Shown here: positions 9,427 through 51,820 of the stretch, piece after piece
How the letters are laid out: every line of letters starts with the position of its first letter
How positions within the stretch are numbered: the stretch's first letter is position 1
DNA from: SAR202 cluster bacterium
GTDB taxonomy: Bacteria; Chloroflexota; Dehalococcoidia; Lucifugimonadales; GCA-2712585
DNA length: 64,000 nt
Reading direction: 5' to 3'
Assembly (NCBI GenBank): GCA_016872285.1
Contig: VGZZ01000004.1
Coordinates: 1-64,000 of the forward strand
Translations under genes and position numbers: made by a program
Notes under the pieces: generated by a model
Told to the model about the DNA's origin: nothing
The model's database searches: none
The model's input: the letters and a program-made list of their open reading frames with translations, nothing else

Positions 9427-9440
9427 TCAGTTCTCCTCTT

Positions 9441-9486
9441 TGTCATTCTGAGCGAAGTCCGTACTCGGACGTAGTTGAAGAATCTG
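9441..9486. repeat. Hairpin repeat, TGTCATTCTGAG family, copy A
   Basis: Outer inverted repeat ATTCT (9445-9449)/AGAAT (9479-9483) and inner stem GTCCG/CGGAC around TACT (9457-9470). Same layout as 50297-50342, with changed but still complementary inner stems. Confidence 0.85.
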
Positions 9487-9513
9487 TTTTGTCTGCAAAC
9501 TCGTTTCCACAGT

Positions 9514-30804: not shown

Positions 30805-30963
30805 GCCGTGCTCTTGGTTTCATCCTGACATTATTTTAATTGTTAAGGTCGAATATCCCTTCTTTAGATTGGGAAGCAGCAGTATCGCGAGTCCTTTTTG
30901 TTTACAACGCCTGCAATGTTGATATCGATGAAGGAGCCGCCTGGCCCCTTCCCCTCAGGTACT

Positions 30964-31018
30964 CCCTCTTCTCCTATTGAAAAGGAGAAGAGGGATAAAG
31001 GGTGATGAGGGTGTCCCG
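30964..31018. repeat. Intergenic hairpin repeat with conserved tail (R1)
   Basis: 12-bp stem 30964-30975/30983-30994 (CCCTCTTCTCCT), followed by ATAAAGGGTGATGAGGG and TCCCGCTTA. Corresponds to the second hairpin and tail of the larger copies at 42547 and 46091. Confidence 0.75.
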
Positions 31019-31144
31019 CTTATGGCAAGGTGTCGCGAGTCAGGGCCGAAGCCCCCCGCCGCCAGGCCGCCCTCAGCCACCCCTCACCCCTCCTGAACCC
31101 CTTAAAAATTGCTAAAAATCTCCCCAAATTTCTTCCCCCTCCCC

Positions 31145-32076: not shown

Positions 32077-32405
32077 AGGGAAATGTCCAACAGCCGCCGA
32101 ATACCAAGCGCAAGAGTCCGAAAAGGGCCAAGACCCCTGCGATGGAGGCGCTGGGGAAGTTCTTTCAGGGAGAGTCTAGAGAGCGCCAAATCCTTAGAAT
32201 CTGACCCGAGCCTGGTCGAGGGGATAGTAGACTCCGAGGCAACCCTCAGGTCCCTTCCCCCCTTGAGGGGGAAGGTTAGGATGGGGGGTCGGGGTGGAGA
32301 GGTAGAGGGAGATGGTATCCAAGCAGGAGAAGGCCCCATTTCTAGTACCCGCACCGCCGCCAATATTTAATAAAGGACAAAAAAGAGAAGGGGAGGCATA
32401 TATTA
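32077..32405. other. Intergenic region before nrdJ
   Basis: About 330 bp without a credible gene; the 95-codon open frame here includes the translated repeat and lacks a ribosome site. The last 15 bp hold GGGGAGG before the nrdJ start. Confidence 0.5.
32253..32295. repeat. Intergenic hairpin repeat, CCTTCCCCC type
   Basis: 9-bp stem 32253-32261/32267-32275 (CCTTCCCCC), loop CTTGA, then TTAGGATGGGGGG. The same unit recurs at 42885-42919 between the two tRNAs. A fragment CCTGAGCCTGGTCGAGGGGAT precedes it. Confidence 0.7.
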
Positions 32406-34682
32406 ATGACCACACTGCAGCTCACTAAAAACGCTGAAATCGTCCTCAAGACCCGCTACCTTATAGGCGGCGAGACCCCGGAGGGCCTTTTCACCCGCGT
32501 CGCCAAAGCCCTGGCGCAGCCCGAGGCCGACAAAGCCCATTGGCAAGAGGTCTTCCTCGACATGATGGCCTCCTGCCAGTTCATGCCCAACTCTCCCACC
32601 CTCTTCAACGCCGGCACCGGCCAGGGCACCCTCTCCGCCTGCTTCGTCATCCCTGTGGAAGACACTATGTCCAGCATCATGAAAGCCGCCACCACCAGCG
32701 CCATGATCCAGAAGTTCGGCGGCGGCATCGGCTACAGCTTCTCCAAGCTGCGCCCTCGCGGCAGCAAAATCGCCACCACCCAGGGCAAGGCCTGCGGCGC
32801 CGTAGCCGTCCTCAAAATGCTCAGCGGCCTCAGCGACATGATTACCCAGGGCGGCAAGCGCCACGGCGCTAACATGGGCATCCTCAGCGTCTCCCATCCT
32901 GAAATCCTGGACTTCATCCACCTCAAGGACACCAACAAAGAGGCCCAGAACTTCAACGTCTCCGTGGCCATTACCGACGATTTTATCCGGGCCGTGGACC
33001 AGGGCAAGGACTGGCAGCTCATCGACCCCCGCACCAAGCAGGTGGTCCGCACCCTCCCTGCCAATCAGATCTGGAACGACATCATCGACTCCGCCTGGAA
33101 GACCGGCGACCCCGGCCTCTACTTCATTGACCAGGCCAACCGTCACAATCCCACCCCCCACCTGGGCAACCTGGACAGCACCAACCCCTGCGGCGAGGTC
33201 CCCCTCCTGGCCCACGAGGCCTGCAACCTGGGCTCCATCAACCTGGCCAAGTTCGTCCATAATGGCAGGGTGGACTACAAGGGGCTGGAGGACCTGACCC
33301 GCAACGCCACTCGATTCCTGGACAACGTGGTCACCATCAACATGTTCCCCGTCCAGGAGGTCACCGACGCCGTCCACGCCACCCGCAAGATTGGCCTGGG
33401 CGTCATGGGCTGGCACGATGCCCTTATTAAGATGGGCATCCCCTACGACTCGCCTCAAGCCCTGGGAGTCGCCGATGAGGTCATGCGGCTAATCAACGAC
33501 ACCGCCCGCGAGACCTCCTTCGAGCTGGCCCGCGAGCGGGGCTCCTACCCCGCCTGCCGAGAAAGCATCCCCGTCCGCAACGCCACCCGCACCTGCATCG
33601 CTCCCACCGGCAGCATCAGCGTCATCGCCGGCGCTTCCAGCGGCATAGAGCCTATCTTCGCCGTCGCCTTCGTCAAAAATGTCCTGGACGGCAAGCAGCT
33701 TACCGAGGTCAACCCCTACTTCGAGGAGATCGCCAAGGAGCGCGGCTTTTACAGCAAGGAGCTCATGGACGAAGTGGCGCGCACCGGCTCCGTCCAGAAG
33801 ATCGACACCGTGCCCCAGGACGTGAAGGCCCTCTTCAAGACCGCCCTGGAAATTGACTACCAGACCCACGTTAAGATGCAGGCCGTCTTCCAGAAGCACA
33901 CGGACCTGGCCGTCAGCAAGACCATCAATATGCCTAACTCCGGCACTCGCGACGACATTGAGCAAGCCTATCGAATGGCCTTCGACCTCGGCTGCACCGG
34001 CATCACCATCTATCGAGATGGCTCTAAGCCTACCCAGGTGTTGGAAGTCAAGTCCTCCAAGCCTGTCCTGAGCGCAGTCGAAGGAAAGTCCGCCGATGCC
34101 AAGCCCGCCGTCGTGGAAGCCGGCAGGTCCTCGGTGACTCTCACCCCCAGGGAGCGCCCCGCCCACATGACCGGCGTCACCGACCGCGTCCGCACCGGCC
34201 ACGGCAACATGTACGTCACCATCAACTTTGACGACAGCGACAAGGCCTTCGAGGTCTTCTCCACCCTCGGCAAGTCGGGAGGCTGCGAGTCCGCCAGCCT
34301 GGAGGCCATATCCCGCCTCATCTCCCTGGCCCTCCGCTCTGGCGTCGACCCCCAGGCTATCGTCGAGCAGCTTCGCGGCATCACCTGCGTCCCCGCCTGG
34401 GACCAGGGCGTCCTGGTGGGTTCCCCCGCCGACGCCGTGGCCCTGGCCATGGAGCGTCGAATCACCGGCGGCCTGAGAAGCGGACACAAGCAGCCCGTGG
34501 CAGCCCAGCTTAAGTTGGAGACTAAGGACCCCCAGGCCCCCAAAATGCTGTCCAACGGCAACGGCCACAGCCGCCACGACTCCAAAGGCTCCGGCCTTCG
34601 ATGCCCCCACTGCAACTCCGGCCTGGTCTTCCAGGAAGGATGCCTGGCCTGCCTCTCCTGCGGCTGGAACAAATGTGAGTAG
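32406..34682 (+). CDS. nrdJ: Adenosylcobalamin-dependent (class II) ribonucleotide reductase
   Basis: 758 aa. Catalytic barrel with redox cysteine C79 (LSACFV), the active-site triad N260, C262 and E264 in NPCGE, C273, and GGGIGYSFSKLRPRGS. C-terminal TSCPD-like segment (GNMYVTINFDDSDKAFEVF, ESASLEAISRLISLAL) and a four-cysteine zinc ribbon (CPHC...CLACLSCGW). It reduces ribonucleotides without oxygen or a partner subunit but needs B12. Residues about 553-561 (PVLSAVEGK) are encoded by an inserted repeat core in the linker before the C-terminal domain. Regulated by NrdR, by inference. Confidence 0.95.
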   Translation: MTTLQLTKNAEIVLKTRYLIGGETPEGLFTRVAKALAQPEADKAHWQEVFLDMMASCQFMPNSPTLFNAGTGQGTLSACFVIPVEDTMSSIMKAATTSAMIQKFGGGIGYSFSKLRPRGSKIATTQGKACGAVAVLKMLSGLSDMITQGGKRHGANMGILSVSHPEILDFIHLKDTNKEAQNFNVSVAITDDFIRAVDQGKDWQLIDPRTKQVVRTLPANQIWNDIIDSAWKTGDPGLYFIDQANRHNPTPHLGNLDSTNPCGEVPLLAHEACNLGSINLAKFVHNGRVDYKGLEDLTRNATRFLDNVVTINMFPVQEVTDAVHATRKIGLGVMGWHDALIKMGIPYDSPQALGVADEVMRLINDTARETSFELARERGSYPACRESIPVRNATRTCIAPTGSISVIAGASSGIEPIFAVAFVKNVLDGKQLTEVNPYFEEIAKERGFYSKELMDEVARTGSVQKIDTVPQDVKALFKTALEIDYQTHVKMQAVFQKHTDLAVSKTINMPNSGTRDDIEQAYRMAFDLGCTGITIYRDGSKPTQVLEVKSSKPVLSAVEGKSADAKPAVVEAGRSSVTLTPRERPAHMTGVTDRVRTGHGNMYVTINFDDSDKAFEVFSTLGKSGGCESASLEAISRLISLALRSGVDPQAIVEQLRGITCVPAWDQGVLVGSPADAVALAMERRITGGLRSGHKQPVAAQLKLETKDPQAPKMLSNGNGHSRHDSKGSGLRCPHCNSGLVFQEGCLACLSCGWNKCE
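34064..34090. repeat. Repeat core inside nrdJ
   Basis: TGTCCTGAGCGCAGTCGAAGG followed by AAAGTC, the core of the TGTCATTCTGAG family, inserted in frame and translated as PVLSAVEGK in a flexible linker. Confidence 0.75.
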
Positions 34683-34969: not shown

Positions 34970-35032
34970 CAAGGTGTCTATGTGAGCGTGGTGCTTTACT
35001 GTGGCAAACGAAGGGCAAGGCTCCCATCCGGT

Positions 35033-35185
35033 TCTCCCCTTCTCCTATTGCAAATGGGAAGAGGGAGTTAGACGCCGTCCTGAGCCTGGCCGAAGGAGGG
35101 GGAATTGGTGCTCTATATTTCTCTTCCCCTTCCAGCAGAAGGGGCTAGGGGATGGTATCCCTAGTAAAGAAACGCTGGCTTTTCA
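35033..35185. repeat. Double-hairpin intergenic repeat (R2)
   Basis: Imperfect first hairpin (35033-35067), AGTTAGACGCCGTCCTGAGCC module ending CCGAAGGAGG, second hairpin CCCCTTC/GAAGGGG (about 35127-35144), and the tail GGGGATGGTATCCC. The tail is followed by TAGTAAAGA. Confidence 0.85.
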
Positions 35186-35570: not shown

Positions 35571-35780
35571 GATACCTCCCCCACTTCCAGGATTGCCCTC
35601 ATCATCAAACAAGAGTACTAGGCCTTCTACCTCCCAAATGATTAGTCCAACAAATCCTTTGTGAAATTCGGGAAGTATATCCCTCTTCAACTCCGCTAAG
35701 GTTACGAAGATACACCTGTAATGCGCTTCGCTAGGACAGCTCATCTCATACCAGCCTGAACTCTCCTTTGAGAATGCGGT

Positions 35781-35930
35781 CTCCCCTCGGCCCGGGCCGA
35801 GGGGAGAGTTAGACGCCGTCCTGAGTCCGCCTCTGGCGGATCGAAGGAGGGTTTGTGGTGGAGTATTTTCTCTTCCCCTTCTTTCCGCTGAAAGAAAGAG
35901 ATAAAGAGGATGATGGTATCTCATGCGCAC
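35781..35930. repeat. Double-hairpin intergenic repeat (R3)
   Basis: Perfect 26-bp palindrome 35781-35806 (CTCCCCTCGGCCC and its complement), then AGTTAGACGCCGTCCTGAG with an extra TCCGCC/GGCGGA hairpin inside the module, CGAAGGAGG, a degenerate second hairpin and GATGATGGTATCTC. Confidence 0.85.
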
Positions 35931-42449: not shown

Positions 42450-42546
42450 CCCGTACCTTTAGTGAATCCTTAAATAGGCAAGGCTCGATTCGCTTTGCCA
42501 AGCTTGGTTATCTTTAGCAGGGCTGAGGTGGGTCGTCTTTCTGGCC

Positions 42547-42680
42547 CTCCCTCTCCTCCTTGGCAAGGAGGAGAGGGAGATGGAGGGAGAGGTGGTCGCT
42601 TTATTTCTCTTTCCCTCTTCTCCCGACTACGGGAGAAGAGGGATTAAGGGTGATGAGGGCGCCCCGACTAAGACCAAAAT
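42547..42680. repeat. Double-hairpin intergenic repeat (R6)
   Basis: First hairpin 42547-42562/42564-42579 (CTCCCTCTCCTCCTTG), second 42613-42624/42631-42642 (CCCTCTTCTCCC), tail ATTAAGGGTGATGAGGG then CCCCGACTAAGA. The CCTGAGCC module found in other copies is absent. Confidence 0.85.
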
Positions 42681-42884: not shown

Positions 42885-42919
42885 CCTTCCCCCTTGAGGG
42901 GAAAGACTGGGATGGGGGG
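42885..42919. repeat. Intergenic hairpin repeat, CCTTCCCCC type, between the tRNAs
   Basis: CCTTCCCC-CTTGA-GGGGAAAG (one mismatch), followed by GGGATGGGGGG; same layout as 32253-32295. Confidence 0.65.
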
Positions 42920-42937
42920 CTTCTCTCCCCATCACGC

Positions 42938-45984: not shown

Positions 45985-46090
45985 TCCCCATGCATTCTTG
46001 CAAGTTGCCTCTTTAGGTAGAGATACCTAAGGGGTGTCGGGATTCCTATGACCCTTCCGGGGTACCTGGGGATGTCCATCTCATCCGGTT

Positions 46091-46240
46091 CTCCCTCTTT
46101 TCCTCGTGAGGAAAAGAGGGAGTTAGACGCCGTCCTGAGCCTGTCCGAAGGAGGGGGAATTGTGCAACCGTTTTCTTTCCCTCTCTTCCTGCAGGAAGAG
46201 AGGGATTAAGGGTGAGATGGTATCCCGATTAAAGACAGGA
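46091..46240. repeat. Double-hairpin intergenic repeat (R4)
   Basis: First hairpin 46091-46105/46108-46122 (15 bp), AGTTAGACGCCGTCCTGAGC module ending CCGAAGGA, second perfect palindrome 46179-46204 (CCCTCTCTTCCTG), tail ATTAAGGGTGAGATGGTATC then CCGATTAAAGACA. Confidence 0.88.
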
Positions 46241-46263
46241 TTGACTTCCAGTACGAATCCCAC

Positions 46264-47445
46264 CTACACCCTATACCTCTCCTCCATCACCCCCTCCAGC
46301 AGCCCTAGCTCCGCCCTCCCCACCACCTCCAGCGTCCGGTCCGCGTTCGGCGGCATCAGCGTGCACGTCCGCACGTCACGAAACAGCCGCTCCAGCGGGT
46401 ACCTCTTATGCGCCACCCGCCCCCCGCACACCTGCAATGCGCGAGACGTCACCATCAGCGCCGCCTCCGTCGCCCGGTTCTTAGCCCGGCTCCCCAGCGT
46501 TAGCATTAGCAGCGGGTCCGGCCCCTCCGGCCACCGATACGCCGACTCATGCATCACCAGCCTCGCCGACTCCACCACCAGCCCCATCTCCGCCACGTGC
46601 CGCTGAATAATCGAGTTGTGGGACATAGGCGCCGGGTCCGGGTCGAACCTGTTCTTCTTTACGAACTCCTTGGTGTAGTCCAGCGCCCGCTGCGCCGCCC
46701 CAATGAACACCGCCGCGTACCCCATGGCGAAATGCAGCCCCAGCCCCGCCCTCTCGCTGTCCCCTGGCTTGCCCAGCACGCACTCCTTCCTCACCGGGCA
46801 CTCCTCAAAGGTTACGCTGGGGCTTACCGTCCCCCGCATCCCTAGTGTGTCCCAGCCCCCCGTAATCGTCAGCCCAGGACTGTCCCTGGGGACCAGCGCC
46901 ATAGTCGCACTCTTCTCCGCCTGGTACCCCTCCATGGCGCAATGGATCATGTACCGGTAGGCCCCACCCGCCATGGTGCAAAAATGCTTCGGCCCGTTGA
47001 TCACATAGCCATCATCACGAGGACTCAAAATCGTGTTCGCGACGCCCGACCCTCCCCGCCTCGACGGCTCGCTCCCCCAGCTCCCAAACAGCCTCCCGTG
47101 CTCCACCACGTCAGGATAAAACGACGCCTTCTGCTCCGCCGACCCTAACTGGTCGATATACTTCTGCACTATCGAGTGCATGTGCACCGTCATGGCCGTG
47201 TTGGCGCAGCCCCACGCCAGCTTTTCGATGACCATGACGTAGGTCAGCATGTCCAGCCCCAACCCGCCGTACGACTTCGGTACCGTGGTGGCCAGCAGCC
47301 CCGCCTTCCACACCTCTCGCCACCCCTCCACGGGATGCGTCGCCCGGGCGTCCACCTCCGCCGCGCGAGGCTCCAGCCCCTCCCTTGCCACCCCCTCCGC
47401 CCTGGCGACGATTTCTTCCTGCTCCCTCGTCAGCCTGAAATCCAT
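46264..47445 (-). CDS. Acyl-CoA dehydrogenase-like flavoprotein
   Basis: 393 aa from the ATG at 47445 (MDFRLTREQEEIV is the standard opening; GGAGG upstream). N-terminal helices, the FGSWGSEPSRRGGSG flavin/substrate loop and the C-terminal helical bundle ending RDVRTCTLMPPNADRTLEVVGR are recognisable. The usual catalytic-base region (YEGTxEIQ) is replaced by LMPPNADRTLEV, so it may not be a simple beta-oxidation dehydrogenase; the same fold includes DszC-type flavin monooxygenases. It is divergent from three LLM oxidoreductases. Confidence 0.85.
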   Translation of the reverse strand: MDFRLTREQEEIVARAEGVAREGLEPRAAEVDARATHPVEGWREVWKAGLLATTVPKSYGGLGLDMLTYVMVIEKLAWGCANTAMTVHMHSIVQKYIDQLGSAEQKASFYPDVVEHGRLFGSWGSEPSRRGGSGVANTILSPRDDGYVINGPKHFCTMAGGAYRYMIHCAMEGYQAEKSATMALVPRDSPGLTITGGWDTLGMRGTVSPSVTFEECPVRKECVLGKPGDSERAGLGLHFAMGYAAVFIGAAQRALDYTKEFVKKNRFDPDPAPMSHNSIIQRHVAEMGLVVESARLVMHESAYRWPEGPDPLLMLTLGSRAKNRATEAALMVTSRALQVCGGRVAHKRYPLERLFRDVRTCTLMPPNADRTLEVVGRAELGLLEGVMEERYRV

Positions 47446-47527
47446 TAAACGCGACACCTCCAAGTCCGCCCCAGTATAGCGCCTCACTCCCGTCGACGCA
47501 GTGCTAGGTCTGTAGGTGTAAGGGATT

Positions 47528-47580
47528 TGTCATCCTGAGCAAAGTCCCGATGTACTCGTCGGGACGCAGTCGAAGGATCT
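47528..47580. repeat. Hairpin repeat, TGTCATTCTGAG family, copy C
   Basis: Outer stem ATCCT (47532-47536)/AGGAT (47574-47578) replaces the ATTCT/AGAAT of other copies with complementary changes. The inner stem GTCCCGA pairs with TCGGGAC around TGTACTCG. Confidence 0.85.
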
Positions 47581-47622
47581 ATGCCCACTACCCAGGTTGC
47601 GCTGAGTCGGCCACCCCTCCGG

Positions 47623-47748
47623 TCATTCACCACGCATCTCCTTCACCAACTCGTCAGGATCCTTTCCCGCCAGCTCTTTTAGATATCCCCTATACTTCTC
47701 AAACGGCGACGCCGGCGCGCGCTTACTTACGCGCTTAGGTGTGGTCAC
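47623..47748 (-). CDS. Possible small basic protein
   Basis: 41 codons from a GTG at 47748. After a basic start (TTPKRVSKRAPASP) comes FEKYRGYLKELAGKDPDEL and a final VKEMRGE. The amphipathic helix pattern and codon choice look coding, and the frame stays open for 18 lysine-rich codons upstream without an ATG or a good ribosome site. It may be a small DNA-binding or antitoxin-like protein, or a gene remnant. Confidence 0.35.
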   Translation of the reverse strand: MTTPKRVSKRAPASPFEKYRGYLKELAGKDPDELVKEMRGE

Positions 47749-47980
47749 CTTATCTCTTTTGGTCTTTTTAGCCTTACCTATATCGTCCCCTTTATTATTG
47801 GTTTAGTCATCGCCTGACTTTAATCCATGATTGTCTCTCGATACAACTGTTATCCCCTCAAAATCCCCTCCCTACCCTCCCACCCCTCCCGATGCTACAA
47901 TGCGCCACGAACCAGCATATAATCGGCGCAGGCCGACGTGTCGGCCCGCCCCCAGCAACCCACGCCCCCAGGAGCCGCTA

Positions 47981-49024
47981 TTGGACGTAGGCATCTTCAT
48001 GGAGTTCCCCCGCCCCAAAGGCGCCACCGACGCCCAGGTCTTTGACCGCGCCTTCAAAATCATCGACCTGGCCGAGTCCTCCGGCCTCCATTCCGTCTGG
48101 CTCGCCGAGCTCCACTTCGAGCCTGAGCAGTCCGTCCTCTCCTCCCCTGTCGTCGTGGCCGCAGCAGCCGCCTCCCGCACCCAGCGGCTTCGCATCGGCC
48201 TTGCCGTCGCCGTCCTCCCCCTCTACAACCCCCTCCGCCTCGCTGAGGACGTCGCCACCCTCGACCACATCGCCGGAGGCCGCATCGACTTCGGCGTCGG
48301 CCGCAGCGCCGCCCCTCGAGGCTACATCGGCATGAACATTCCCTATGCCGAAAGCCGCCAGCGTTTCTCCGAGTGCCTCCAAGTCATTCAAAAAGCCTGG
48401 ACTCACGATACCTTCTCCCACCACGGCCAGTTTTACCACTACGATGACGTGCGCGTCGTCCCCCGCCCCTTCCAGCAGCCCCACCCGCCCATCCGCATCG
48501 CCACCAATTCCCCAGGCACCTACCTCTTCTCCGGCAAAGCCGGCATTCCTATCTTCCTCAGCGTTCGAGGCGTCCGAAGCCAGCTCGTCGAGCACGTCGC
48601 CAGCTATTGTGAGGCCTGGGAGTCCGCCGGCCACCCGGGCAAGCCCCACCTCTCCCTCCGTATCCCCGTCTACGTCCATGAGGACCGGCGCCGCGCCCTG
48701 GAGGACCCCAAAGCCAGCGCCATGAACTTCTATCGACAGCTTATCGAGACCGTCGGCACGCCTATCCCCAGCCTGTCCGACGAGGAGAACCGAGAGCGCG
48801 CCGAGCGCGGCCAGCGCCTCCGCTCCATCACCTACGACGACATCCTCAAGACCGACCTGGCCTACGGTACCCCCGATGAAGTGACCGAAAAGCTTCTGGA
48901 ACTAAAAGAGACCTTCAACCTCTCCTGCGTCATCGCCGAACCCAACTTCGGCCGCCTCATCCCCCAAGACAAAGAACTCGCCTCCCTCCAACTCTTCGCA
49001 GAAAAAGTCGCCCCCAAGCTGTAA
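47981..49024 (+). CDS. LLM-class flavin-dependent oxidoreductase 1 of 3
   Basis: 347 aa from the TTG at 47981, which has AGGAG six bases upstream and aligns with the ATG starts of the two following paralogues (LDVGIFMEFPRP versus MEIGVYFEFPRG). Bacterial-luciferase fold: LHSVWLAELHFEPEQSVLSSP, RIGLAVAVLPLYNPLRLAEDVATLDHIAGGRIDFGVGRS (as landmarks), and an HHGQFYHYDDVRVVPRPFQQPHPPI segment. Likely an FMNH2-dependent monooxygenase. The trio may oxidise related recalcitrant organic compounds. Confidence 0.88.
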   Translation: MDVGIFMEFPRPKGATDAQVFDRAFKIIDLAESSGLHSVWLAELHFEPEQSVLSSPVVVAAAAASRTQRLRIGLAVAVLPLYNPLRLAEDVATLDHIAGGRIDFGVGRSAAPRGYIGMNIPYAESRQRFSECLQVIQKAWTHDTFSHHGQFYHYDDVRVVPRPFQQPHPPIRIATNSPGTYLFSGKAGIPIFLSVRGVRSQLVEHVASYCEAWESAGHPGKPHLSLRIPVYVHEDRRRALEDPKASAMNFYRQLIETVGTPIPSLSDEENRERAERGQRLRSITYDDILKTDLAYGTPDEVTEKLLELKETFNLSCVIAEPNFGRLIPQDKELASLQLFAEKVAPKL

Positions 49025-49086
49025 CCTACTCTCCATTTTTATGTAGGGGCGAGGTCGCCGCGCCCTTGTTCTCCCTCTTCTCCGTC

Positions 49087-49106
49087 ATTCCGGCGGAAGC
49101 CGGAAT
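49087..49106. repeat. REP-like palindrome
   Basis: ATTCCGGC-GGAA-GCCGGAAT, an 8-bp stem with a GGAA loop, preceded by GTC and followed by CCAG. It resembles the widespread TTCCGGC...GCCGGAATCC palindromic repeats. Confidence 0.7.
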
Positions 49107-49244
49107 CCAGCCCTTCCTTAGTTCGCGGCAAGAGAGTCGCTAGCCTTTCACATCCGCCTCTCTAACCCTTCACATAGCGTATGGCCTTCTCCGGTGCTAC
49201 AATTCCCCCAACCTCATCCCAATATCCGCACCGCGGAGGCGTCC

Positions 49245-50291
49245 ATGGAGATCGGCGTCTATTTCGAGTTCCCTCGAGGCAACGGCAAGTCTGAGCACCA
49301 GGCCTTCGAGGAGGAGTTCCAGCACATCCAGCTAGCCGAAAAGGTCGGCTTCGACATCGCCTGGCTCGCCGAGCTCCACTTCTCCCCGGAACGCTCCGTC
49401 ATCTCCGCCCCCCTCATCGCCGCCGCCGCCATCGCCAACCGCACCAAGAAAATCAAAATCGGCACCGCCGTCAGCGTCCTCCCCCTCAACAACCCCGTCC
49501 GCATGGCCGAGGACATGGCCACCCTTGACCACGTCACCAACGGGCGGTTCGAGCTGGGCATCGGACGCAGCGGCGCCCCACGAGGGTACGTCGGCTACGG
49601 CATCCCCTACCCCGAAAGCCGCCCCCGATTTCGCGAGTGCCTGGAAGTGATAAAGAAAGCCTGGACTGAGGAGCGGTTCTCCTACCACGGCCAGTTCTAC
49701 AACTATGACAACGTCTGCGTCATCCCCAAACCCCTCCAGAAGCCCCACCCCGCCATCCGAAACGCCGCCTCCTCCGCCGGCTCCTTCCCCTTCTCCGGCC
49801 AGATGGGCTTTCCCATCTTCATCGGCCTCCGAGGCGTCCTCGACTCCGCCAAGGAGCGCGTCGACAGCTACAAAGACGCCTGGCGAAAGGCTGGCCACTC
49901 AGGCCAGCCCAACATCTGCATCCGCGTTCCCACCTATGTGGCCGACACCACCGAAAAAGCCCACCGTGAGGCCGAGCCCAGCGCCATGAACTGGTATAAA
50001 AACCTGGTCCCCACCCTGGGCGAACCCCTCCCCGGCCTCTCCGACGAGGAAAACGCCGACCGCGCCGCCCGCTCCAAACGCTTCCAGTCCATGAGCTACG
50101 ACGAGTTCCTAGAGACCGATTCCGCCTTCGGCTCCCCTGAAGCCGTCGCCGACCGTCTGCAAGAGCTAAAAGAGACCTTCAGTCTCACCGGCGTCATGAT
50201 GGAGGCCAACTTCGGCGGCATGATCCCCAAAGACAAAGTCCAGCGCTCCCTAACTCTCTTCGCCGAAAAAGTCGCACCACGGTTGAAGTGA
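49245..50291 (+). CDS. LLM-class flavin-dependent oxidoreductase 2 of 3
   Basis: 348 aa from the ATG at 49245 (GGAGG five bases upstream); the in-frame ATG at 49194 adds 17 residues without a ribosome site. Same length and block order as its neighbours: FDIAWLAELHFSPERSV, KIGTAVSVLPLNNPVRMAEDMATLDHVTNGRFELGIGRSGAPRGYVGYG and FSYHGQFYNYDNVCVIPKPLQKPHPAI (landmarks). Highest similarity is to copy 1. Probable FMN-dependent monooxygenase; substrate unknown. Confidence 0.88.
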   Translation: MEIGVYFEFPRGNGKSEHQAFEEEFQHIQLAEKVGFDIAWLAELHFSPERSVISAPLIAAAAIANRTKKIKIGTAVSVLPLNNPVRMAEDMATLDHVTNGRFELGIGRSGAPRGYVGYGIPYPESRPRFRECLEVIKKAWTEERFSYHGQFYNYDNVCVIPKPLQKPHPAIRNAASSAGSFPFSGQMGFPIFIGLRGVLDSAKERVDSYKDAWRKAGHSGQPNICIRVPTYVADTTEKAHREAEPSAMNWYKNLVPTLGEPLPGLSDEENADRAARSKRFQSMSYDEFLETDSAFGSPEAVADRLQELKETFSLTGVMMEANFGGMIPKDKVQRSLTLFAEKVAPRLK

Positions 50292-50296
50292 TGCTC

Positions 50297-50342
50297 TGTC
50301 ATTCTGAGCGAAGTCGGTACTCCGACGAAGTCGAAGAATCTG
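50297..50342. repeat. Hairpin repeat, TGTCATTCTGAG family, copy D
   Basis: Outer ATTCT/AGAAT, inner GTCGG-TACT-CCGAC. Compared with copy A the inner stem is changed from GTCCG/CGGAC with pairing kept. Confidence 0.88.
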
Positions 50343-50628
50343 TTATGACTGCTGCCCAGTCTGGCGAACCGAGTTACTCTCCATTGTCAAGAATCTCCTT
50401 TCTCTGGATGATGGCTATTACCAGTCCAGGTTCTACGTGCGCTGAAAGGATTGACCGCCATCGAGAAAATCCCTTCTCCCTTGATGGGAGAAGGCGAAGG
50501 ATGAGGGTGAAACACTGGCACCACAATCCTTTATCACTACTGCCTTCCACGCTACGAATTCTCCCTTTCCCCACTTCCTGCAGGGGAGGGGAAGAGGATG
50601 AGGGCCATTCCCCCAGAAGGAGCCCCCT
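50343..50628. other. Intergenic region with degenerate hairpin repeats
   Basis: Between LLM copies 2 and 3. A hairpin CCTTCTCCC (50472-50480)/GGGAGAAGG (50486-50494) is followed by CGAAGGATGAGGGTGAAAC, and a weaker CTTTCCCC...GGGGAGGGGAAG pair lies near 50575-50595. No gene is supported. AAGGAG before 50629 is the next ribosome site. Confidence 0.5.
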
Positions 50629-51675
50629 ATGGAACTAGGCCTCTTCTTTGACCTCCCGCCCCGCGACGGCGACTCCCACGCCCCCACCTTCGCCGAAGCC
50701 CTCCGCCACGTGGACATTGCCGAGTCCTGCGGCCTCGACAGCGTCTGGATCGCCGAGCGCCACTTCCAGCCCAACCGCTCCCTCTGCTCCGCACCTATGG
50801 TCCTGGCCGCCGCCGTGGCCGGCCGCACCAAACGCATAAAAATCGGCACCGCCGTCAACGTCCTCCCCCTCTACAACCCCGTCCGCCTCGCTGAAGAAGT
50901 CGCCACCCTGGACAACCTCTGCCAGGGCCGCTTCGAATTCGGCGTCGGGCGTAGCAGCGGCGAGGGCGCCTACAAAGGCTTCAAAGTCCCCTATATGGAA
51001 AGCCAGCATCGCTTCGACGAGTGCCTGGACGTGCTCATCAAGGCCATGACCACCGACCGCCTCACCCACAAGGGCGCCTTCTACGCCTTCGACAACATCG
51101 CCGTCGTTCCCAGGCCCCTGCAGAAGCCCCATCCGCCCATGCGCATCGCCGTCACCTCGCCAGCCTCCTTCGCTTGGGCCGGCCAGCGGGGCCTTCCTAT
51201 CTTCCTCGGCCTCAACGCTCCCTCCGCTGTCCTCAAACCTCGCATCGAGTCCTACAAGCAGGCATGGCACGACGCCCAGCGCCCCGGCGCGCCTGACGTC
51301 TGCCTCCGCCTCCCAGTCCACGTTGCCCCCACCACGCAAGCCGCCCTGGACGAGCCCAAAGACAGCGCCATGAACTTCTACACCAAAATCATGCCCGCGC
51401 AGAACACGCCCATCGCCGGCCTATCCGACGAGGAGAACCTCCAGCGCGTCGCCCGCGCCGACAAGCACCGCGCCATGACCTACGACGACGTGCTGCGAAA
51501 TCACCTAGTCGCGGGCACGCCGGAAGGCGTGGCGGACCGCCTCCTCGCCCTCAAAGAAGAACTAAGCCTCAGCAGCGCCATCGCCGACGTAAACTTCGGC
51601 GGTATGATCCCCGGCCCAGCCCTGGACCGCTCCTTCCGCCTCCTGGCTGAACACGTCACCCCAAAACTTAAGTAA
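50629..51675 (+). CDS. LLM-class flavin-dependent oxidoreductase 3 of 3
   Basis: 348 aa; AAGGAG six bases before the ATG. It shares all blocks with copies 1 and 2: LDSVWIAERHFQPNRSL, KIGTAVNVLPLYNPVRLAEEVATLDNLCQGRFEFGVGRSSGEG, and PRPLQKPHPPMRIAVTSPASF. It is the most divergent of the three (ELGLFFDLPPRD start; loop GRSSGEGAYKGF). Probable FMN-dependent monooxygenase, cytoplasmic. Each copy is separated by repeats rather than an operon-like gap, so they may be transcribed separately. Confidence 0.88.
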   Translation: MELGLFFDLPPRDGDSHAPTFAEALRHVDIAESCGLDSVWIAERHFQPNRSLCSAPMVLAAAVAGRTKRIKIGTAVNVLPLYNPVRLAEEVATLDNLCQGRFEFGVGRSSGEGAYKGFKVPYMESQHRFDECLDVLIKAMTTDRLTHKGAFYAFDNIAVVPRPLQKPHPPMRIAVTSPASFAWAGQRGLPIFLGLNAPSAVLKPRIESYKQAWHDAQRPGAPDVCLRLPVHVAPTTQAALDEPKDSAMNFYTKIMPAQNTPIAGLSDEENLQRVARADKHRAMTYDDVLRNHLVAGTPEGVADRLLALKEELSLSSAIADVNFGGMIPGPALDRSFRLLAEHVTPKLK

Positions 51676-51700
51676 GGAGTTGGGGATGCCTCCTCAGGTT

Positions 51701-51820
51701 CTCCCCCTTTTCCTCGTGAGGAAAAGGGGGAGTTAGAGGGGGAATTTGGTGTAATTTTTATCTTCCCCTTCTTCCAGCAGGAAGAAGGGGCCAGGGGATG
51801 AAGGTATCCCGCTTAAAGAT
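51701..51820. repeat. Double-hairpin intergenic repeat (R5)
   Basis: First hairpin 51701-51715/51718-51732 (15 bp), then AGTTAGAGGGGGAATTTGG with no CCTGAG module, second hairpin 51765-51775/51780-51790 (CCCCTTCTTCC), tail CCAGGGGATGAAGGTATCCC then GCTTAAAGATA. Confidence 0.88.

Follow-up and report, generated by a model that had tools for sequence, protein, structure and literature searches.

The window analyzed here is a stretch of 64,000 nucleotides (nt) from a SAR202 cluster bacterium (Chloroflexota; contig VGZZ01000004.1 of assembly GCA_016872285.1), in which a double-hairpin repeat occurs with or without an inserted module of 24-25 nt. The module has precise filled and empty states, occupies fixed sites in other repeat families, and has an orientation that is locked to GC skew and not to genes. 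On balance, the module is probably an independent, non-autonomous miniature mobile hairpin that depends on a single-strand step at the replication fork, with the double-hairpin repeat as one of its several hosts.

The presence and absence of the module had been noticed in five copies of the repeat in a sequence-only reading of the window. These copies were read again directly in the sequence, and all five match that description. In the copy at 46091, GAGTTAGA (46120-46127) is followed by the module and then by GGGGGAATT. In the copy at 51701, GGGGGAATT comes directly after GAGTTAGA (51730-51737), with no module between them. The module is also present in the copy at 35033 and, with an extra TCCGCCTCTGGCGGA hairpin in its loop, in the copy at 35781, and it is absent from the copy at 42547. 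The extra loop is a perfect hairpin, TCCGCC-TCT-GGCGGA, and the same loop is found in other filled copies. The module at 46128-46152 can equally be read as ACGCCG..GAAGG one base earlier, with an A shared at the junction. The copies in the window are given below, with bit scores from the covariance model that is described after them.

46079-46230, + strand: double-hairpin repeat, hairpin 1 of type C, with module, 159 bits; hairpin 1 at 46091-46122, hairpin 2 at 46178-46205, tail hairpin to 46230
46128-46152, + strand: the 25-nt module CGCCGTCCTGAGCCTGTCCGAAGGA, the sole filled one among ten type-C copies
51688-51814, + strand: double-hairpin repeat of type C, with an empty site between GAGTTAGA and GGGGG at 51737/51738
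35021-35165, + strand: double-hairpin repeat with module at 35073-35097
35766-35926, + strand: diverged double-hairpin repeat with a 35-nt module at 35814-35848
42534-42669, + strand: double-hairpin repeat with a divergent hairpin 1 (CTCTCCTCCTTGGCAAGGAGGAGAG), without module
30949-31021, + strand: single hairpin formed by fusion, in which the 5' half of hairpin 1 runs into hairpin 2's 3' arm and tail, 42 bits

Judged from its sequence, the fused hairpin at 30949-31021 looks like a recombination product between the two stems.

The source genome is a fragmented assembly of a single species (2.61 Mb, 83 contigs, 95.6% complete), and the counts given here come from about 0.85 Mb of it, in stretches that were fetched because they surround copies of the repeat. 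A covariance model built from 22 copies detects at least 150 significant copies in the 2.61-Mb genome, with E-values down to 1e-47, and 174 distinct matches of about 42 bits or more were kept from the fetched 0.85 Mb. Both hairpins are preserved by compensatory changes, as double changes are seen in 10 of the 20 consensus pairs. Hairpin 1 occurs in several backbones: A (CTCTTCTCC..GGAGAAGAG), B (CCCTTCGGCCTGGAAGGCGAAGGG), C (TTTTCCTCGTGAGGAAAA) and E (CTTCTTCTCC..GGAGAAGAAG). Alternative forms are also found in hairpin 2 and in the tail, and further short hairpin cassettes are found in the loops and tail. The module is present in 84 of the 174 copies and absent from 90, which includes a few copies without an assignable backbone. 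By hairpin-1 class, the filled and empty copies number 41 and 42 for B, 20 and 21 for A, 9 and 8 for E, and 1 and 9 for C; the single filled copy of type C is the one at 46091. Every hairpin-2 type, and each of the remaining optional parts, is found with the module and without it, and 62 distinct combinations of optional parts result.

Other features of the repeat were observed alongside these states. The module is more common in copies with a GTACTCAGTCCCGATG insert in the loop of hairpin 2 (25 of 31, p=0.00016, over all 174 copies). The tail sequence co-varies with the stem of hairpin 2, GGAAGAAGGGG occurring with GGGGATGAAGG and GGAAGAGAGGG with GGGTGAGATGG, as if the stem had been copied in mirror form; examples in the window are 46178-46230, 51765-51814 and 42603-42669. 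Ends like ACGCGTGATGCA..TGCATCACGCGT were found in at most seven copies when the repeat was examined as a miniature inverted-repeat transposable element, with terminal inverted repeats and target duplication. At C6:41567 (C6:41300-41900), hairpin 2 of one copy contains in its CAGCAG loop an entire second repeat with ACGTGTGATGCA..TGCATCACGCGT ends, flanked on both sides by CAGCAG, resembling a target duplication of the larger element.

Searching the genome for the module core with up to three mismatches gave 83 matches, versus 1 for a reversed control pattern, which is well above chance. The module measures 24-25 nt, or 33-35 nt when its loop contains the extra hairpin. In the A, B and C backbones it is a 25-nt unit, ACGCCGTCCTGAG-loop-CGAAGG, and in the A' and E backbones a 24-nt unit, AGCCTGCCCTGAG-loop-CGAAGG, each varying by one base with loop length. 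In the double-hairpin copies, it always lies 3' of T-A-G at the hairpin foot. In this repeat no target duplication is seen, as a filled copy minus its module equals the empty site. Ragged junctions, which would have pointed to ordinary decay, were looked for in the 174 copies and were not borne out. With a strict pattern, approximately 165 of the 174 junctions are clean, a figure that is approximate; five of the filled calls of this pattern matched a related insert in the loop of hairpin 1 instead. Three of the nine unmatched junctions are clean by eye, and the others are point-mutated, truncated or chimeric. Filled and empty copies can be up to 95.8% identical outside the module, and after removal of its module the copy at 46091 is identical to C41:8972 at 117 of 129 positions.

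The module consists of a 7-nt lead (ACGCCGT or AGCCTGT) and an imperfect hairpin, XCCTGAG-loop-CGAAGGX, with a conserved GAG/CGA core in the stem. Such a core is able to form tandem (sheared) G-A pairs. Related hairpins share the core and have compensated arms: ATTCT, ATCCT, GTCCC, GTCCT, GCCCT, ATTCC and ATTTC. The kinship to the TGTCATTCTGAG family that was proposed in the sequence-only reading is real, as both are XXXGAG-loop-CGAX'X'X' hairpins.

The module is not confined to the double-hairpin repeat. At least four other repeat families carry it at fixed sites, and it also lies within the loop of the module itself. In seven copies of the TCATTCTGAG family outside the window it is located at GTCGAA^GAATCT, and in the CCCCCTTGAGGGGG..GATGGGGG family it follows GGTTAG or GCTTAG (CCCCCTTGAGGGGGAAGGTTAG^GATGGGGG). 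Further hosts are a CTCTCCCCCCTTGAG^AGGGAGAG hairpin, which holds it in the loop, and a GGGGAGAACAG^ family, and module-in-module nesting is seen at C20:33376 and C29:12184. A contig of a different Chloroflexi bacterium was the sole match among the genome contigs searched for relatives, and in this contig the repeat is shared but the flanking synteny is not. Hairpin, GAGTTAG and module come in the same order there, hairpin 1 being different and the flanks unrelated, and the module nested in the TTCTGAG family is also found there, again with unrelated flanks. Of 294 genomes of the class, 114 contain the module core, and the reversed control appears once in the listed counts. The earlier interpretation had left two options, insertion of one repeat into another or precise loss of modules. 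It is partly supported overall: insertion of one repeat into another is supported by the sequences, since several unrelated host repeats, and the module's own loop, contain the module at precise positions. In the window, the other host families and a module-like stretch are found at the following positions.

32258-32290, + strand: second host family, CCCCCTTGAGGGGGAAGGTTAG^GATGGGGG, empty, with filled relatives elsewhere (C8:5762, C20:33376)
42889-42920, + strand: second copy of this host family, CCCCCTTGAGGGG..GATGGGGG, empty
9438-9496, + strand: third host, the TCATTCTGAG..GAAGAATCTG family, empty
50294-50352, + strand: second copy of the TCATTCTGAG family, empty
34060-34084, + strand: module-like AGCCTGTCCTGAGCGCAGTCGAAGG in the open reading frame (ORF) of a ribonucleotide-reductase large chain (32406-34682), open in frame

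The module-like stretch at 34060-34084 is translated as PVLSAVEG and is located in the linker before the TSCPD domain.

The strongest property of these repeats, their replication-strand polarity, was not noticed in the earlier reading. GC skew was used as a proxy for the replication strand. The orientation of the double-hairpin repeat agrees with the local skew in 172 of 174 copies, the forward sequence being on the C-rich strand; one of the two exceptions adjoins a skew switch and the other is at a contig end. When skew was calculated from coding DNA only, 166 of 169 copies were concordant, which rules out a skew artefact caused by the repeats themselves. With each contig taken as a single observation p is 1.6e-9, full concordance being seen in 41 of 44; contigs C7 and C18 contain internal skew switches, and there the repeats reverse direction as well. 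All modules inside double-hairpin copies are concordant (82/82), as are 41 of the 47 outside them; the six discordant ones have no 7-nt lead, five of them are in ORFs, and they are read as chance matches. The TTCTGAG family is locked in the same sense (17/17). Genes have no strand bias relative to skew (329 vs 347), and each of the four possible arrangements of flanking genes is seen around the copies (60/37/31/26). The GAG/CGA hairpins of G004, a complete genome from a different genus within the family, are all concordant (40/40), and the more distant genomes G282 and G106 gave 8/8 and 11/12.

On C7, both skew and repeat orientation flip twice within 34 kb, at about 5 kb and at 38-40 kb, which may reflect either a local inversion carrying its repeats or a chimeric contig. 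The interval between the copies at 46091 and 51701 holds, at 47831-51675, a tandem array of three ORFs for luciferase-like monooxygenases (D1/D2 repeats, 62-76% DNA identity); Pfam was run on the first and third of these.

The repeats were also compared with known families and systems. An Rfam scan of positions 30000-53000 of the window gave nothing above gathering score except two tRNAs, which rules out known RNA families there, and a literature search by sequence string and by encoded peptide returned nothing relevant. Cyanobacterial small dispersed repeats (SDRs), as described by Elhai et al. in 2008, are reportedly 21-27 nt long and nested, and replication-strand polarity is not a known feature of theirs. 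SDR5 is reported to be inserted precisely within HIP1 (PMC4390886). The module resembles the SDRs as a 24-25-nt unit at exact positions within other repeats of several host families, but it differs in phylum and sequence, and its host here is a hairpin with a T-A-G foot and not HIP1. REP sequences and REPINs are hairpins of 20-40 nt with a high copy number, an intergenic location, a foot tetranucleotide, mosaics and occasional in-frame gene copies (PMC6006769, PMC3733652). The module shares with them a short imperfect palindrome in many intergenic copies. In contrast, its foot (TTAG, CTAG or ATAG) lies outside the unit and is followed by the 7-nt lead, where REP has GTAG or GTGG; the genome has no RAYT (PF01797), and the module enters other repeats at fixed points. 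IS200/IS605 elements have hairpin ends and insert on the 3' side of a short, T-rich target, which they do not duplicate. Their orientation recapitulates the direction of replication (PMC5371812, PMC6006769). The module is similar in that its orientation follows the replication strand, as judged by the GC-skew proxy, and in that it lies 3' of TAG^ without target duplication in the double-hairpin repeat. It differs in that no TnpA was found in the genome, in its size of 25 nt versus hundreds of bases, and in its nearly absolute polarity. Streptococcal BOX and enterobacterial BIME elements are modular intergenic hairpin mosaics with optional parts. The present repeats differ in that their parts are separate repeats, which also occur alone and in other families and are all co-oriented with the replichore. 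The best reading of this comparison would be that the module works like an IS200/REP- or SDR-type element, yet it departs from the tested defining features of REP/RAYT systems.

Several observations weigh against an independent mobile module. The version of the module follows the host backbone (ACGCCG.. in A, B and C; AGCCTG.. in A' and E), so part of the pattern must stem from copies that were already filled, through copying or gene conversion, and not from fresh insertion each time; fresh insertions may be few. With standard energies, only a weak DNA hairpin of about -1 kcal/mol is predicted for the module. No match to the Y1 transposase (PF01797, IS200/REP-type) was found in the 95.6% complete source genome, and PF01797 is absent from most high-copy relatives. 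Mobilization by a resident Y1/RAYT enzyme was rejected since no such gene is present, and a link with Y1 in the class is weak at most (7 of 19 high-copy vs 2 of 17 low-copy genomes, with G004 counted as high-copy and G038 as low-copy). Polarity is also not universal in the class, being 12/17 in G244 and 3/7 in G312; as it weakens further out, polarity is a lineage property. In addition, the strand markers conflict, with dnaA on the G-rich strand and rpoB and rplB on the other, and the leading/lagging assignment from these contradictory markers was dropped. The tracking of version with backbone would also fit a module that was ancestral in each backbone and then underwent repeated precise loss, through slippage or bypass of the hairpin during replication, or states that were swapped by gene conversion. 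The 62 combinations are as expected from exchange between copies, and the fused hairpin at 30949 would be a recombinant. However, the junctions share only one or two identical bases, which is too little for slippage to land at the same base each time, and loss leaves the fixed sites in unrelated repeats and the module-in-module nesting unexplained. As a rival, precise loss is serious for the pattern within the repeat but not for the presence in unrelated repeats, and loss or conversion is considered possible but doubtful as the explanation.

The near-absolute polarity, common to several families and another genus, and the preservation of both hairpins by compensatory changes would suit functional polar marks of the replichores (guiding FtsK, acting like Chi or priming the lagging strand), with orientation fixed by selection. 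This is unlikely, as composition and length are highly variable, with optional modules, nested insertions and fused remnants, polarity is not kept in all module-bearing lineages of the class, and GAG/CGA is the only short motif that is constant across all families. Survivorship, in which both orientations insert and the wrong one is deleted because its stabler hairpin lies on the strand skipped at the fork, is considered quite improbable. Owing to the conserved G-A core, the hairpins of the two strands are unequal (GAG/CGA vs CTC/TCG), and orientation tracks skew, not genes, but the predicted strand differences of the module are small and inconsistent in sign, although the parameters may not credit sheared G-A pairs. 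Moreover, the strand lock is just as strong for hairpins 1 and 2, although these are near-perfect and hence almost symmetric. Ordinary RNA structures oriented by transcription, such as terminators or elements of 3' untranslated regions, are very improbable. Stable and mostly intergenic double hairpins would be expected of them, but no T-run directly follows the hairpins, the Rfam scan found no such family in its range, and the unbiased genes and mixed flanking arrangements already contradict and rule out transcription-driven orientation.

For the mobile hairpin, the following mechanism is proposed. The module would insert precisely and without target duplication, either in a hairpin loop or directly 3' of another hairpin's T-A-G foot. 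As with IS200/IS605 and REP elements, the substrate of this step would be single-stranded DNA, exposed on one of the two strands at the fork, and the step would either spread the hairpin insert or retain it. The enzyme may be supplied in trans or may since have been lost. Once a copy is filled, its further spread would come from gene conversion and from the repeat moving as a whole, which would explain why the version tracks the backbone. A broader proposal, which is tentative and rather doubtful, is that a transposase-less superfamily of hairpins (XXXGAG-loop-CGAX'X'X', with a tandem G-A core) spreads across the Chloroflexota by insertion of single-stranded DNA into hairpins at forks, through a mechanism not yet described, resulting in nested combinatorial repeats with an orientation that records replication direction. 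If true, the orientation of these repeats would be an almost perfect record of replication direction. The orientation of the repeats can also be used to mark replication direction in fragmented metagenome assemblies. Among known mobile repeats, those of about 25 nt belong to the smallest, and the nearly equal numbers of filled and empty sites, the many hosts and the near-absolute polarity in more than one genus allow the mechanism to be tested.

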